Shown one piece after another: positions 5,760-57,399 of a stretch of 64,000 nt of DNA. Each line of letters opens with the position of its first letter. Positions within the stretch are counted from its first letter, which is position 1. Source of the DNA: Porphyromonas catoniae ATCC 51270 (lineage in GTDB: Bacteria > Bacteroidota > Bacteroidia > Bacteroidales > Porphyromonadaceae). The notes beneath the pieces are model-generated. The model searched no databases. It saw only the letters and a list, made by a program, of their open reading frames with translations, and was not told the origin of the DNA. A program made the position numbers and the translations under genes. The stretch lies in NCBI RefSeq assembly GCF_000565015.1, contig NZ_JDFF01000008.1, positions 62,001 through 126,000 on the forward strand, in the 5' to 3' direction.

Positions 5760-7811
5760 CTATTTCTTGTCGGGGTAAGCGATGCGGGCGTGGTACATCG
5801 TCTTCAGTTTGAGGTAGAAGACCTCCTTGATCTCCTTGATGTCTCGGAAGGTCAAAGGTGTATCCGTTAGCAAGCCTTCCCCTACGATACTATCGACGAG
5901 CTTGTCGATGAGGGCTCGGATACCTTCCTCCGTGTATTCGCTGAGGCTACGGCTGGCTGCCTCCACACAGTCGGCTAGCATGAGTATCCCCATCTCCTTG
6001 GTGTAGGGATTGGGGCCAGGGTAGGTAAATGGCTCGGGATCGATGTACTCACCTGGATGCTCATTGCAGTAGGAGTTGTAGAAGTAGCGTGTTGTACTTC
6101 TGCCGTGATGGGTGCGGATGAAGTCGATGACCTGATCGGGTAGACCATGCTTCTGTGCCAGCATGACACCATCGGCTACGTGCTGGATGATGATGCGGGC
6201 GCTCTCCCTGTAGTCGAGGTAGGAGTGGGGGCTATTGGTTGGGGCATTCTCGGTGAAGTACTCAGGATGAAGCATCTTCCCGATGTCATGGTACAGTGCG
6301 CCTGTACGGATGAGCTGAGCATCTGCTCCTATCTTCGTTGCTGCTGCGGTAGCGAGGATGGATACTTGGTAAGAGTGCTGGAAGGTTCCTGGAGCAACCT
6401 CCGATAGCTCCTTCAGTAGCGGTGTTGCCATATCGCTCAGCTCCACCAGACGGACGTGCGATACATAGCCGAAGAGCTTCTCTACGATGAAGGCGAGGAT
6501 GTAGGTGAACATGAGGAAAATCAGGTTCACTCCATAGTAGAGGAGGGAGATCCAATAGCCTGGGCGGATGAGCCCCTCACGCATCCCCTCTACAATTAGT
6601 GATGAGCCGATGTAGGCAACATATACAGCGAAAGCCGCACGAATGAGCTGACCTCGAGAGTTGAGGCTCTGCAGGCTAAAGAGAGCAAAGAAGCCAGCGG
6701 TAAGCTGGATAAAGAGGAAGGAGAGTGGGTCGATCACGAAGTAGGCTGCCGTGAGGATCGTCACAAGGTAGCTCGTGAGGGCGAGGTGGCTGTCGAAGAA
6801 GATACGTAGCAAGAGCAGAATCATCACGTAGGGGATGACTTCTACGGAGAACCATTCGCTGCTGGCCTGTAGCTCTGTCAGGGCGATGAAGGCAAGCATG
6901 AGGCTGAAGAGCATGAGGATGTTTCGCCCCCTGACACAGAACTCTCGGTTGAAGAGCATCAGATAGATTCCAAGGATTGCAAAGAGCAGTGCTACGTAGA
7001 GGAAAAGGGCAAGGTTGAAGGGGGACTGAGTCTCTCCGCCTGAGCGATGTATCTGCTCCGTGCGTAGGGACCGAAGTACATTATATATGTAGGGTGTGAC
7101 GATCTCCCCCTTGTCGATGATGCGCTCCCCCTGCTGGATGAGCCCCGTAGAGGTGGAGAGGTGTGAGAGCGCATCGTTGAGGAGCTTCTCGGTGTAGTCC
7201 TTGTCGTAGCGTACGTTGGGTGTGAGGTAGGAGGAGACGTCCATCTTCTGTAGCTCCTCCCGCTGTAGCCCCTTGGCTACTGCGTGCTCGAAGATTTGGT
7301 CATAGACTTCCTTGAGGCCGTAGAAGCGAGTAATCGGTACACGGCTCATTACGTTGTCCGAGCCGAGGAGGTTGAGCTCGAGGTGGTTCTCCTCTCTGAG
7401 ACGTGTGACCTCGGATGCTTCGATTAATCCACTGCCGTAGGTCTTGCGCAGTTCATCCTGCAGGAAGAGGTAATAGGCTCTAGGTATCGTTGTGGATAGC
7501 TCACCTGTATAGGCGTCATGGAGCTTGTTGAGCATCCGGGGGAGGACATTACCATCCAGTGTATAGACGGGGAGGGATTCCTGTTGGATGCTATCTCGCT
7601 CCATTCGCATCTGGTCATCTGTTTTATAGATGGGGAAGTCATACGGAGCGGTAATCAGCTCATAGGCCCATGGCTTTCCACTGCTGAACTGGTACTGGAA
7701 GCTCCTATTGCGTGGCGCAAGGAGCATCACCACGAAGGCAGTGGCGAGCAGCGAGACGAAGGTCTTGAGCCACAGGCTCTGGAGGATTCGCTTGAGGGGT
7801 ATCTGATACAT
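5760..7811 (-). CDS. pgpH: 7TM-HD membrane phosphohydrolase (PgpH-like)
   Basis: 683-residue membrane protein of the 7TMR-HD family, which includes Listeria PgpH, a cyclic di-AMP phosphodiesterase. There is an N-terminal membrane segment (about 14-32), then a long extracytoplasmic 7TMR-HDED-like domain (about 50-265). A cluster of about seven hydrophobic helices follows (about 265-450), and a C-terminal cytoplasmic HD domain begins near 465. The HD domain shows FQHSYQVSILA, LYHDIGKM (HD pair near 508) and FIRTHHG, giving the metal-binding histidines and aspartate. Activity on c-di-AMP is inferred from the family, not shown here. Confidence 0.88.
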   Translation of the reverse strand: MYQIPLKRILQSLWLKTFVSLLATAFVVMLLAPRNRSFQYQFSSGKPWAYELITAPYDFPIYKTDDQMRMERDSIQQESLPVYTLDGNVLPRMLNKLHDAYTGELSTTIPRAYYLFLQDELRKTYGSGLIEASEVTRLREENHLELNLLGSDNVMSRVPITRFYGLKEVYDQIFEHAVAKGLQREELQKMDVSSYLTPNVRYDKDYTEKLLNDALSHLSTSTGLIQQGERIIDKGEIVTPYIYNVLRSLRTEQIHRSGGETQSPFNLALFLYVALLFAILGIYLMLFNREFCVRGRNILMLFSLMLAFIALTELQASSEWFSVEVIPYVMILLLLRIFFDSHLALTSYLVTILTAAYFVIDPLSFLFIQLTAGFFALFSLQSLNSRGQLIRAAFAVYVAYIGSSLIVEGMREGLIRPGYWISLLYYGVNLIFLMFTYILAFIVEKLFGYVSHVRLVELSDMATPLLKELSEVAPGTFQHSYQVSILATAAATKIGADAQLIRTGALYHDIGKMLHPEYFTENAPTNSPHSYLDYRESARIIIQHVADGVMLAQKHGLPDQVIDFIRTHHGRSTTRYFYNSYCNEHPGEYIDPEPFTYPGPNPYTKEMGILMLADCVEAASRSLSEYTEEGIRALIDKLVDSIVGEGLLTDTPLTFRDIKEIKEVFYLKLKTMYHARIAYPDKK

Positions 7812-8345
7812 TGCCTATAATCAATTACTTGTCACAAAGGTAAGCAAAACACCTTGCTTACTGCACGTCTTCACCTGTGGTTGTACTTCTTGCTTGTCCG
7901 TTTGGGGGAGGCTTGAGAGGAGCTGTCTTTGCTTAGGATGGTGGGCTTAGGGTGGTGCGCTATAATAGGTGCCGGGGGAAACCCGACAGAGGTATCGGGG
8001 GTGCCTCCGTTGAGGTACCGAGGAAACCTCTGATGAGGTTCCCCCGATACCTCCTAAGCCATTCCCTCTAGGGCGATAGATGGGGTGTTCCGATGGTGGG
8101 TGTGGGGCTCCTTGTTTGGGTGGTGATTCTGGTTTGGGGCGATGCACTCTGCTCCTCGACGTGGTGTGTGGTGTATTATCGGTGTTTCTCTGGATGTGCT
8201 GGCGAGGTGGTGTTTATCTGCTTATGCCTTGGTTCCCAGCGAGGGCATGAGGTGTCTTCTCCGCTAGGTTTGCTTGCTGTCTATCCTTTCCCAAGTCTTC
8301 TGATTCCTAGTTATTTGGCAGGTCTTTTCTCTGGGGGATAAACGA
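7812..8345. other. Intergenic region, 7TM-HD gene to the rpmB promoter
   Basis: Divergent gap with no convincing gene; the open frame at 8093-8341 is G/T-rich noise. It contains the palindrome array at 7966-8073. The part after about 8080 is strongly G/T-rich on the plus strand. Confidence 0.5.
7966..8073. repeat. Array of 19-bp inverted repeats, 23-bp period
   Basis: Units at 7966-7984 (imperfect), 7989-8007, 8012-8030 and 8035-8053 begin exactly 23 bp apart. The last three share the plan GAGGT-N9-(A/G)CCTC: GAGGTATCGGGGGTGCCTC, GAGGTACCGAGGAAACCTC and GAGGTTCCCCCGATACCTC. A fifth palindrome CCCTCTAGGG (8064-8073) is centred 24.5 bp further on. The second and fourth units are also complementary to each other over 13 bp (7989-8001 with 8041-8053). 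The sequence is unrelated to the GAGTTACCATAACTC arrays elsewhere in the window but has the same period. Confidence 0.75.
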
Positions 8346-8377
8346 TTTGTATAAGTGCGTTTTTTTTAGTTACTTTG
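8346..8377 (+). promoter_or_regulatory. Promoter of rpmB-rpmG-DUF4295
   Basis: TTTG at 8346-8349 and TTACTTTG at 8370-8377, 20 bp apart. The -7 box differs from TAnnTTTG at one base. It would give a leader of about 80 nt before rpmB. Confidence 0.65.
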
Positions 8378-8466
8378 CAGACCGATTGTGGAGTGCTCTG
8401 TTTGAAGAGCGCAGGACACAAGTCGCTGAAAGTGTTAGAAATAACAAACTAAAATATATAGAGATA

Positions 8467-8718
8467 ATGTCAAAGATTTGTCAGATTACAGGCAAGAAGG
8501 CCATGGTCGGCAACAACGTCTCGCACTCAAATCGTAAGACGAAGCGCCGCTTTGATGTCAACCTGTTTACAAAGAAGTTCTTCTGGCCCGAGGAAGGGTG
8601 CTGGATTGTGCTGAAGCTATCAGCATCAGGACTTCGACTCATCAATAAGATCGGACTCGATGCTGCCATTCGTCAGGCTGCAGAGAAGGGCTATCTAAGT
8701 GAAATCAAGGTAAAGTAG
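8467..8718 (+). CDS. rpmB: Large ribosomal subunit protein bL28
   Basis: 83 residues, [29 protein letters not shown], which is the bL28 signature. An in-frame upstream ATG at 8347 would add 40 residues with no bL28 character and would start at the promoter itself, so the ATG at 8467 is chosen. It is the first gene of rpmB-rpmG-DUF4295, a common Bacteroidota grouping. Confidence 0.96.
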
Positions 8719-15715: not shown

Positions 15716-15823
15716 GAGTTACCATAACTCGCTCGGACGACTTACCATAACTCTCTTCGGCGACTTACCACAACTCGTTTAGAAGAGTTACCATAACTCG
15801 TCACGAAGAGTTATGGTAACTCG
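15716..15823. repeat. Palindrome array 1 (GAGTTACCATAACTCG type), five units
   Basis: Units start at 15716, 15738, 15762, 15785 and 15808 (spacing 22, 24, 23, 23). In order they are GAGTTACCATAACTCG, GACTTACCATAACTCT, GACTTACCACAACTCG, GAGTTACCATAACTCG and GAGTTATGGTAACTCG. Each forms a 6-bp stem with a 3-nt loop (CCA or TGG). It lies between divergent genes. The left flank (GCCCTTGTTTAGGGC, then a G-rich stretch and AATGAGTT) resembles that of array 2. Confidence 0.9.
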
Positions 15824-29922: not shown

Positions 29923-30030
29923 GAGTTACCATAACTCTCTGTGACGAGTTATGGTAAGTCGTTGTGAAGAGTTGTGGTAAGTCGTTTGAGCGAGTTATGG
30001 TAAGTCGTAGAGGCGAGTTGTGGTAACTCA
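29923..30030. repeat. Palindrome array 2, five units
   Basis: Units start at 29923, 29946, 29969, 29992 and 30015, exactly 23 bp apart: GAGTTACCATAACTCT, GAGTTATGGTAAGTCG, GAGTTGTGGTAAGTCG, GAGTTATGGTAAGTCG and GAGTTGTGGTAACTCA. The first unit has loop CCA, the others TGG. It lies between divergent ricT and rpsH. The flank GCCCTAAATAGGG, then GGGGGTAATGAGTT, resembles array 1. A lone degenerate unit lies at 30289-30304. Confidence 0.9.
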
Positions 30031-39197: not shown

Positions 39198-39282
39198 GAG
39201 TTACCATAACTCGCTTCTGAGAGTTGTGGTAACTCGCTCCAAAGACTTATGGTAAGTCGCTCAGACGAGTTATGGTAAGTCG
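39198..39282. repeat. Palindrome array 3, four units
   Basis: Units start at 39198, 39221, 39244 and 39267, exactly 23 bp apart: GAGTTACCATAACTCG, GAGTTGTGGTAACTCG, GACTTATGGTAAGTCG and GAGTTATGGTAAGTCG. The third unit keeps its stem by a paired change in both arms (GAC with GTC). It lies between genes of the same direction, 225 bp past the rplQ terminator. Confidence 0.9.
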
Positions 39283-47934: not shown

Positions 47935-48042
47935 GAGTTGCCATAACTCGTTTTAACGAGTTGTGGTAACTCGCTCGGAAAAGTTATGGTAACTCGTCGG
48001 AGCGAGTTATGGTAAGTCGTGAAAGCGAGTTATAGTAAGTCG
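47935..48042. repeat. Palindrome array 4, five units
   Basis: Units start at 47935, 47958, 47981, 48004 and 48027, exactly 23 bp apart: GAGTTGCCATAACTCG, GAGTTGTGGTAACTCG, AAGTTATGGTAACTCG, GAGTTATGGTAAGTCG and GAGTTATAGTAAGTCG. As in arrays 2, 3 and 5, the first unit has loop CCA and the next units TGG-like loops. It is preceded by GGGGTCATCGAGTT and lies between divergent genes. Confidence 0.9.
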
Positions 48043-52120: not shown

Positions 52121-52469
52121 CTCTGTGGATCGTCTGCCTTACTTGTTTTATGGTAGTTGCAGAAGGAGGATATATGCCTCGTTTTTATCTTTGTATGCTT
52201 CTTTCTTTCAGATGGTTAGGAAAGGGGCTGGATGAGTTGCCATAAGTCGTTGCAGAGAGTTATGGTAACTCGTTTCATAGAGTTATGGCAATTCGTTGTA
52301 GCGAGTTGTGGTAAGTCGTTGTGATGAGTTATGGTAAGTCGCTGAGGGGTTGTTTGGCTCTGTGTTTATTAATTTGATTTATAGGTGTTTGTCGTGGGTG
52401 TCTCGGAGGTGGAAGGCAAGAAGTGGAGCAGGGCTGAAGGTAGGGCAAAGAAAAGCTAGAGGAAAAGGA
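52121..52469. other. Intergenic region, fucosyltransferase to DJ-1 gene
   Basis: No gene. It holds palindrome array 5 (52234-52341) in a T/G-rich setting (52120-52440). A promoter for the fucosyltransferase should lie here but is not evident. Confidence 0.45.
52234..52341. repeat. Palindrome array 5, five units
   Basis: Units start at 52234, 52257, 52280, 52303 and 52326, exactly 23 bp apart: GAGTTGCCATAAGTCG, GAGTTATGGTAACTCG, GAGTTATGGCAATTCG, GAGTTGTGGTAAGTCG and GAGTTATGGTAAGTCG. The first unit has loop CCA and follows GGGGCTGGAT. It lies between two minus-strand genes. Confidence 0.9.
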
Positions 52470-56946: not shown

Positions 56947-57399
56947 GGCAGGGTAGAGCTAATACCTTCGTATAATCCGATTTTTTTCGTACCGAAATAG
57001 TTAGGGAGGAGTATGTTATACCCTCTCTAACTCGCTGTGGGTTAGGCTGAAATGGGAGGGTCGGAAAGCCTTCTTTACGAGTTGTGGTAACTCGTAGATA
57101 AGACTTACCATAACTCGCTTCGACGACTTACCACAACTCTTTTGAATGAGTTACCATAACTCGTTGTCGCGACTTATGGTAACTCGTTGTTCCTTCCTTT
57201 TTGATGTATGTAAGGTGTTGATGTCAAGTGGGTTATCCTTTCCTCTTGAAATGCCTGAAATAGCTCCTTCATGGCAGGAGATATACCTCCGTGTATATGC
57301 CGAGCATAAGGGGCCCAAGGGTCGAAGACGATGAATGGGGAGTAGGAAGGTGAGGCTGAGGGGAGAGCTTTGTGGAGGTAAGGAGAAGGGGTAGGATAT
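56947..57399. other. Intergenic region between convergent nadK and DUF4876 genes
   Basis: No gene. Palindrome array 6 occupies 57079-57186. The open frame at 57146-57334 runs through the array and has no family features. Confidence 0.45.
57079..57186. repeat. Palindrome array 6, five units
   Basis: Units start at 57079, 57102, 57125, 57148 and 57171, exactly 23 bp apart: GAGTTGTGGTAACTCG, GACTTACCATAACTCG, GACTTACCACAACTCT, GAGTTACCATAACTCG and GACTTATGGTAACTCG. The middle three units have CCA or CCA-like loops, the first and last TGG, so the order differs from arrays 2-5. It lies between convergent genes. Confidence 0.9.

Follow-up and report, generated by a model that had tools for sequence, protein, structure and literature searches.

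Between the divergent genes pgpH and rpmB of Porphyromonas catoniae lies a run of short tandem palindromes, which raises the question of what these units are and what holds them 23 bp apart. The window analysed here is the whole 64-kb stretch of DNA (positions 62001-126000 of contig C8, in a Porphyromonas genome of 2.04 Mb and 25 contigs; ORF calls were mechanical). The array is confirmed: at positions 7966-8053 stand four units, each made of 5+9+5 bp and parted from the next by a 4-bp spacer, their centres (7975, 7998, 8021 and 8044) fall exactly 23 bp apart, and the starts of pgpH and rpmB both point toward them, that of pgpH from a distance of 155 bp. With a detector whose score combines direct and mirror matches across four units, region 7812-8470 has a symmetric-array score of 9.25 at period 23, and no other period between 15 and 35 exceeds 3.23. 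In 1000 dinucleotide shuffles of this region the score of 9.25 was never reached, the best shuffle attaining 6.61. The sequence-only reading had placed GAGGT-N9-ACCTC units at 7989, 8012 and 8035, and an imperfect one at 7966; all are present, the first with one mismatch (GCCTC) and the imperfect one as TAGGT-N9-AACCC, in register. It had also listed a further small palindrome centred at 8068.5. The centre is right, but the palindrome, which is not of the GAGGT type, probably does not belong to the array, whose next unit would have its centre at 8067. The features of this locus, and of the related arrays discussed below, are collected in the table.

Table. Palindrome arrays and neighbouring genes; numerical coordinates are window positions
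Feature	Position	Strand	Basis or remark
F2 unit 1, degenerate (TAGGT-GCCGGGGGA-AACCC)	7966..7984	.	register kept at 23 bp
F2 unit 2 (GAGGT-ATCGGGGGT-GCCTC), one mismatch	7989..8007	.	pattern match and array score
F2 unit 3 (GAGGT-ACCGAGGAA-ACCTC), exact	8012..8030	.	pattern match and array score
F2 unit 4 (GAGGT-TCCCCCGAT-ACCTC), exact	8035..8053	.	core orientation opposite to unit 3
Small palindrome CCCT-CT-AGGG	8064..8073	.	probably no unit; 1.5 bp off register
pgpH-type 7TMR-HD phosphodiesterase gene	5760..7811	-	PF07698, PF07697, PF01966
rpmB (ribosomal protein bL28)	8470..8718	+	PF00830, 1.4e-25
F1 array, 5 units	15716..15822	.	
F1 array, 5 units	29923..30029	.	
F1 array, 4 intact units	39198..39281	.	
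F1 array, 5 units	47935..48041	.	upstream of clpB
F1 array, 5 units	52234..52340	.	
F1 array, 5 units	57079..57185	.	between convergent ORF calls
F4 array family, TGCGAGGTATATACCTCGCA	P. catoniae genome		directly upstream of HU-HIG gene L206
F5 array family, CACCTATSATAGGTG	P. catoniae genome		directly upstream of HU-HIG gene L215
F6 array family, TTTAGGTATATACCTAAA	P. catoniae genome		directly upstream of HU-HIG gene L208
F7 array family, TTCTCCTATAGGAGAA	P. catoniae genome		directly upstream of HU-HIG gene L212
F8 array family, ACCCACNNGTGGGT	P. catoniae genome		directly upstream of HU-HIG genes L214 and L221
Another array family			directly upstream of HU-HIG gene L218

The units at pgpH-rpmB belong to a dispersed family, called F2 here (GAGGT-N9-ACCTC plus a 4-bp spacer). 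Its junction GAGGT-N9-ACCTC-N4-GAGGT matches the genome 127 times with at most one mismatch, 34 times exactly, and at least 33 separate loci are found among the matches listed; a reversed control pattern gives no match. With such counts, and with the shuffles given above, a product of chance or composition is scarcely credible. The other family, F1 (GAGTTACCATAACTC plus 8 bp), has 529 adjacent-unit junctions genome-wide, in about 130 arrays, and it is indeed unrelated in sequence and identical in period, as had been claimed. Unit number is exactly five in 23 of 24 F1 arrays, and mostly exactly four in F2. A search of 25 other Porphyromonas genomes found neither the F1 nor the F2 sequence. Within F1 arrays the orientation of the units is non-random, mostly ++++-, with one terminal unit flipped (24 aligned). 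A CRISPR array was considered and rejected, the spacers being 4 or 8 bp long against the unique spacers of about 30 bp in CRISPR.

It had been proposed that the 23-bp period, and not the base sequence, is what is conserved, and that intergenic DNA be searched and compared with shuffled DNA. In 357 intergenic gaps from eight Porphyromonas genomes, 119 symmetric arrays were detected, of which 111 have a period of 21-24 bp (65 at 23, 36 at 22, and five each at 21 and 24; the rest together make eight), and shuffles of the same gaps yielded seven arrays with scattered periods. A separate first pass over 14 genomes agrees with this concentration. In the window, the only unbiased sample of its own genome since the P. 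catoniae stretches beyond it were picked around F2 matches, symmetric arrays are present in seven of 20 intergenic segments, each with a period of 23. A sister genus of the same family has arrays in 12 of 52 gaps, at periods of 22 (nine), 23 (two) and 24 bp (one). AT-rich outgroup DNA yields false periods at the plain threshold, and per-region shuffles were therefore applied to the 24 stretches from other families of the Bacteroidales, where two of 80 gaps carry an array at 22-23 bp, so that such series are almost absent from these stretches. Since array sequences vary between families and species, the pitch is their shared trait. The proposal is upheld across families and species, but within a single genome the arms of each family are tightly conserved as well, and a single period of 23 bp holds for the window, the pitch elsewhere being 22, 23 or 24 bp according to family.

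Further palindrome families in the P. catoniae genome, F4-F8 and more, have pitches of 22, 23 or 24 bp, and each Porphyromonas species has array sequences of its own. The main family of Porphyromonas sp. oral taxon 278 W7784 (G012) is GACCTACSGTAGGTC plus 8 bp, with 179 junctions, and is confined to that genome; G010 has GACCTATATAGGTC plus 8 bp, and the arrays of G016 use a GGGATATCCC-type unit. A core, TAYSRTA, is common to F1, F5, the array at L213 and the G012 family, together with the 23-bp pitch. Stretches from G001 and G025 (L072, L073 and L090) differ from the other Porphyromonas genomes, their arrays being built of a unit of 14 bp, TTAGAGATTAGAAG, and of units that bear CCACGTGG. The synteny shared with G010 and G012 is too scant for a comparison of orthologous positions. 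There is one coincidence, downstream of the rplQ ribosomal operon, where the window has its array at 39198 (23 bp) and G010 has one near position 3888 of L154 (22 bp), the two differing in sequence.

Family alignments show that the arms of F1 and F2 are near-invariant and that their spacers and flanks are variable, which indicates that the arms are under selection in place, unlike the decaying copies of a mobile element. This bears on the possibility that the arrays are a MITE or minisatellite in the manner of BrickBuilt, that is, repeats made by mobility or slippage with no function at each site. The MITE BrickBuilt of P. gingivalis does contain a 23-nt tandem minisatellite, whose unit also has the CTC-N4-GAG layout (PMC4596501), and a cassette of about 1 kb with an array and an HU-HIG gene is found three times in G016. 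Against this, the copy number is fixed at five or four and does not vary, arms so constant beside variable spacers and flanks are not expected from neutral decay after insertion, neither leader nor tail nor terminal inverted repeat is conserved in the F1 and F2 flanks, and the arrays are strongly biased to the 5' side of genes. We therefore hold a mobile or slippage origin to be decidedly unlikely. A reading of F1 as a MITE bounded by terminal inverted repeats was rejected, the flank alignment giving weak recurring motifs but no ends. The motif CCCTATCTAGGGCGTTTG recurs about 20-38 bp off one edge of many F1 arrays (for instance on the right side of L044:13561 and on the left side of the window array at 29923), with a TTTATAGTGNGTTA-like sequence on the opposite side.

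The centres of the units tell a different part of the story. The mirror pair at the centre of the F1 unit (positions 7 and 9) can pair in 1% of units against 50% expected, and that of F2 (positions 9 and 11) in 1% against 48%. Mirror positions kept unpaired in this way point to the symmetry of a site for a dimer, asymmetric at its centre, and not to that of a hairpin. The units are palindromic and adjacent ones are able to pair, as would be needed if RNA hairpins, cruciforms or terminators were maintained for base pairing; the unpaired centres speak against it, as do the preference for divergent over convergent gaps and the lack of any Rfam match at the arrays (a search of the 64-kb window returned two tRNAs only). 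Base pairing is very improbable, and the least likely of the three readings that invoke a mobile minisatellite, another regulator or RNA/cruciform structure. F1 and F2 lie in 16 of 24 divergent gaps and in two of 24 convergent ones, and are not at gene 3' ends, for which reason an intrinsic terminator was rejected. The general detector, run on the P. catoniae sample, finds an array in 18 of 22 divergent and four of 15 convergent gaps (p=0.0017). The other genomes, pooled, follow the same trend, which is not significant there. This excess in divergent gaps associates the arrays of the P. catoniae genome chiefly with gene starts. Arrays occupy about half of the intergenic gaps in the P. catoniae sample, whose stretches were chosen around F2 matches.

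When the neighbours of low-copy arrays were annotated, HU-superfamily genes appeared. The P. catoniae genome has 17 HU-family genes (PF18291 matches), and several of its array families stand directly upstream of one (table). Pooled over P. catoniae, G012 and G016, a 22-24-bp array lies no more than 420 bp upstream of 20 of 35 HU-family genes, as against 39 of 220 random genes from the same genomes (p=2.5e-6), and none of the 35 has one downstream; paralogs, and three near-identical cassettes of G016, are non-independent data points in these counts. For families other than F1 and F2, the figures in P. catoniae are nine of 17 HU-family genes and eight of 110 random genes (p=2e-5). About 40% of Porphyromonas HU-family genes are without an upstream array. 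Every full-length HU-HIG gene of two outgroup genomes, six in all, adjoins a 21-22-bp array, two of them with the array upstream and four downstream; five of the six arrays score above threshold, compared with two of 80 outgroup gaps in general, and one downstream array is below it. The canonical HU genes of the same two genomes gave no clear 22-bp signal.

In G016 the three cassettes (L224, L226 and L228, around positions 1040-2039) are each of about 1 kb, are 91-94% identical and sit at three chromosomal places; each is made up of a 22-bp array, an HU-HIG gene and a GC-rich, terminator-like inverted repeat. Their near-identity implies that array and gene duplicate together. The tailed HU-HIG paralogs share C-termini species by species, GGGxGI in P. 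catoniae, GGHVGA in G012 and SGL in G016 (L206-L220 and L223-L237), as if through concerted evolution or one common partner.

These data fit a model in which the arrays are promoter-side platforms bound by an HU-superfamily protein with sequence specificity, most probably one of the HU-HIG (PF18291) paralogs, and we favour it with moderate confidence. They may be weighed against the possibility that the arrays are operators of some other DNA-binding dimer, for example an HTH or RHH regulator, the HU-HIG genes being merely among its targets. Symmetric arms, a fixed pitch and a position upstream of genes are the evidence for such a regulator, and binding by HU-HIG is something that we infer; many unrelated families per genome would, however, require many paralogs of it, and HU-HIG is the gene class found to have private array families, in several genera, and a pitch that depends on the protein clade. 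Another regulator is, on balance, an unlikely answer.

The dependence on clade appears when 31 HU-HIG proteins are placed in a tree, related rows of which are not independent. In clade A (100/99 support), the array pitch is 23, 23, 23 and 24 bp with one exception, and in all remaining clades it is 21-22 bp. The exception, L233, has a 22-bp array, which lies about 300 bp away and is of the family of L227. Clade A includes the G012 gene L229, upstream of which the main GACCTACSGTAGGTC family of that genome is found, and three array-less P. catoniae paralogs, L207, L209 and L210. L210 is preceded, at a distance of 231 bp, by a solitary F1 unit (21.3 bits), and L209, at 136 bp, by a solitary unit of F2 type (14.6 bits). 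Units standing alone in this way are rare: those of F1 with at least 18 bits number five in 463 kb. In the loci read, no full F1 or F2 array adjoins an HU-HIG gene, and the assignment of the two families therefore draws on pitch, on the core (F1 only) and on one solitary unit each. Given their membership in clade A, the shared pitch, the solitary upstream units and, for F1, the shared core, we suggest, as a suggestion only, L210 as candidate reader of F1 and L209 as candidate reader of F2. A contig profile search with the clade-A alignment returned three loci only, all from Porphyromonas sp. oral taxon 278, and an AlphaFold model of a clade-A HU-HIG protein, built on a three-row alignment, was too poor for use (pLDDT 46.5).

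A mechanism can be proposed on this basis. HU-HIG proteins probably bind the arrays and set their spacing, and the protein lattice that the sequence-only reading had imagined behind the period would, judging from the link with HU-HIG genes, be formed by them. Each platform would offer a fixed number of sites, four at pgpH-rpmB, with one dimer on each 19-bp unit accounting for its constant symmetric arms and asymmetric centre, and the spacer would hold the pitch near two helical turns. A row of four or five adjacent dimers could then make up one defined nucleoprotein particle, which may bend or shield the region between the divergent promoters and so tune the adjacent genes. Every HU-HIG paralog would read its own array family, and the many paralogs with a copy of an array before their own gene would be autoregulated. 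As the paralogs diverge, sequences would change and the pitch from dimer to dimer would stay, at 22 bp in most clades and 23-24 bp in one. More broadly, and here our confidence is evenly balanced, HU-HIG proteins may be HU proteins that recognise specific sequences and that form a lineage-specific, rapidly diverging set in the Porphyromonadaceae and other Bacteroidales, each with its own dispersed array family of fixed copy number. If dimer-to-dimer geometry is the sole invariant, the protein and its roughly 100 genomic platforms would be rewritten together from species to species. Should HU-HIG proteins read the arrays, the HU superfamily would have a large, so far uncharacterised branch made up of regulators with sequence specificity, whose code documents itself in that the target sits before the gene. 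It would then be possible to test directly both the specificity of HU proteins and how a DNA-binding protein co-evolves with its many sites.

A search of openly accessible literature on HU-HIG, on 22-bp Porphyromonas repeats and on palindromic arrays of Bacteroidetes brought up only BrickBuilt and PG0121 as relevant, and no array-type operator for HU-HIG or link between HU-HIG and tandem palindromes; the only related description that came up concerns a single P. gingivalis family, which it regards as a minisatellite. BrickBuilt resembles F1 and F2 in being intergenic, dispersed and composed of 23-nt tandem units in Porphyromonas. Apart from the CTC-N4-GAG layout common to both consensuses, its unit, AGAYCATARTATCCTCTCRTRTG, differs by eye from the F2 consensus, GAGGTWHCCYCGDWACCTC-N4. 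Its leader and tail carry IS5-like terminal inverted repeats, GAGACC...GGTCTC (PMC4596501), ends that have no conserved counterpart in 58 F2 and 48 F1 flanks, and its 1-22.8 units per element (PMC4596501) contrast with the constant numbers in F1 and F2. The P. gingivalis copy named BrickBuilt_14 has a PF00216 gene as its neighbour (PMC4596501).

IHF is the known sequence-specific member of the HU/IHF (DNABII) superfamily, and for HU-HIG (PF18291) it is the genes themselves, in several Bacteroidales families, that adjoin palindrome arrays of 21-24 bp. Canonical HU binds DNA largely without sequence preference (PMC3969353). In P. gingivalis the HU protein PG0121 shows a preference for an inverted repeat of 77 bp that precedes the capsule operon (PMC3969353), and is thus also an HU protein favouring an inverted-repeat region in 5' regulatory DNA. 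It differs in being a canonical HU, whose region is one long inverted repeat with no tandem 22-24-bp array. The use of several tandem protein sites at about two helical turns is familiar from iteron and parS operator arrays. Those arrays are found at a replication or partition locus, whereas the palindrome arrays are dispersed over more than 100 intergenic loci in one genome.
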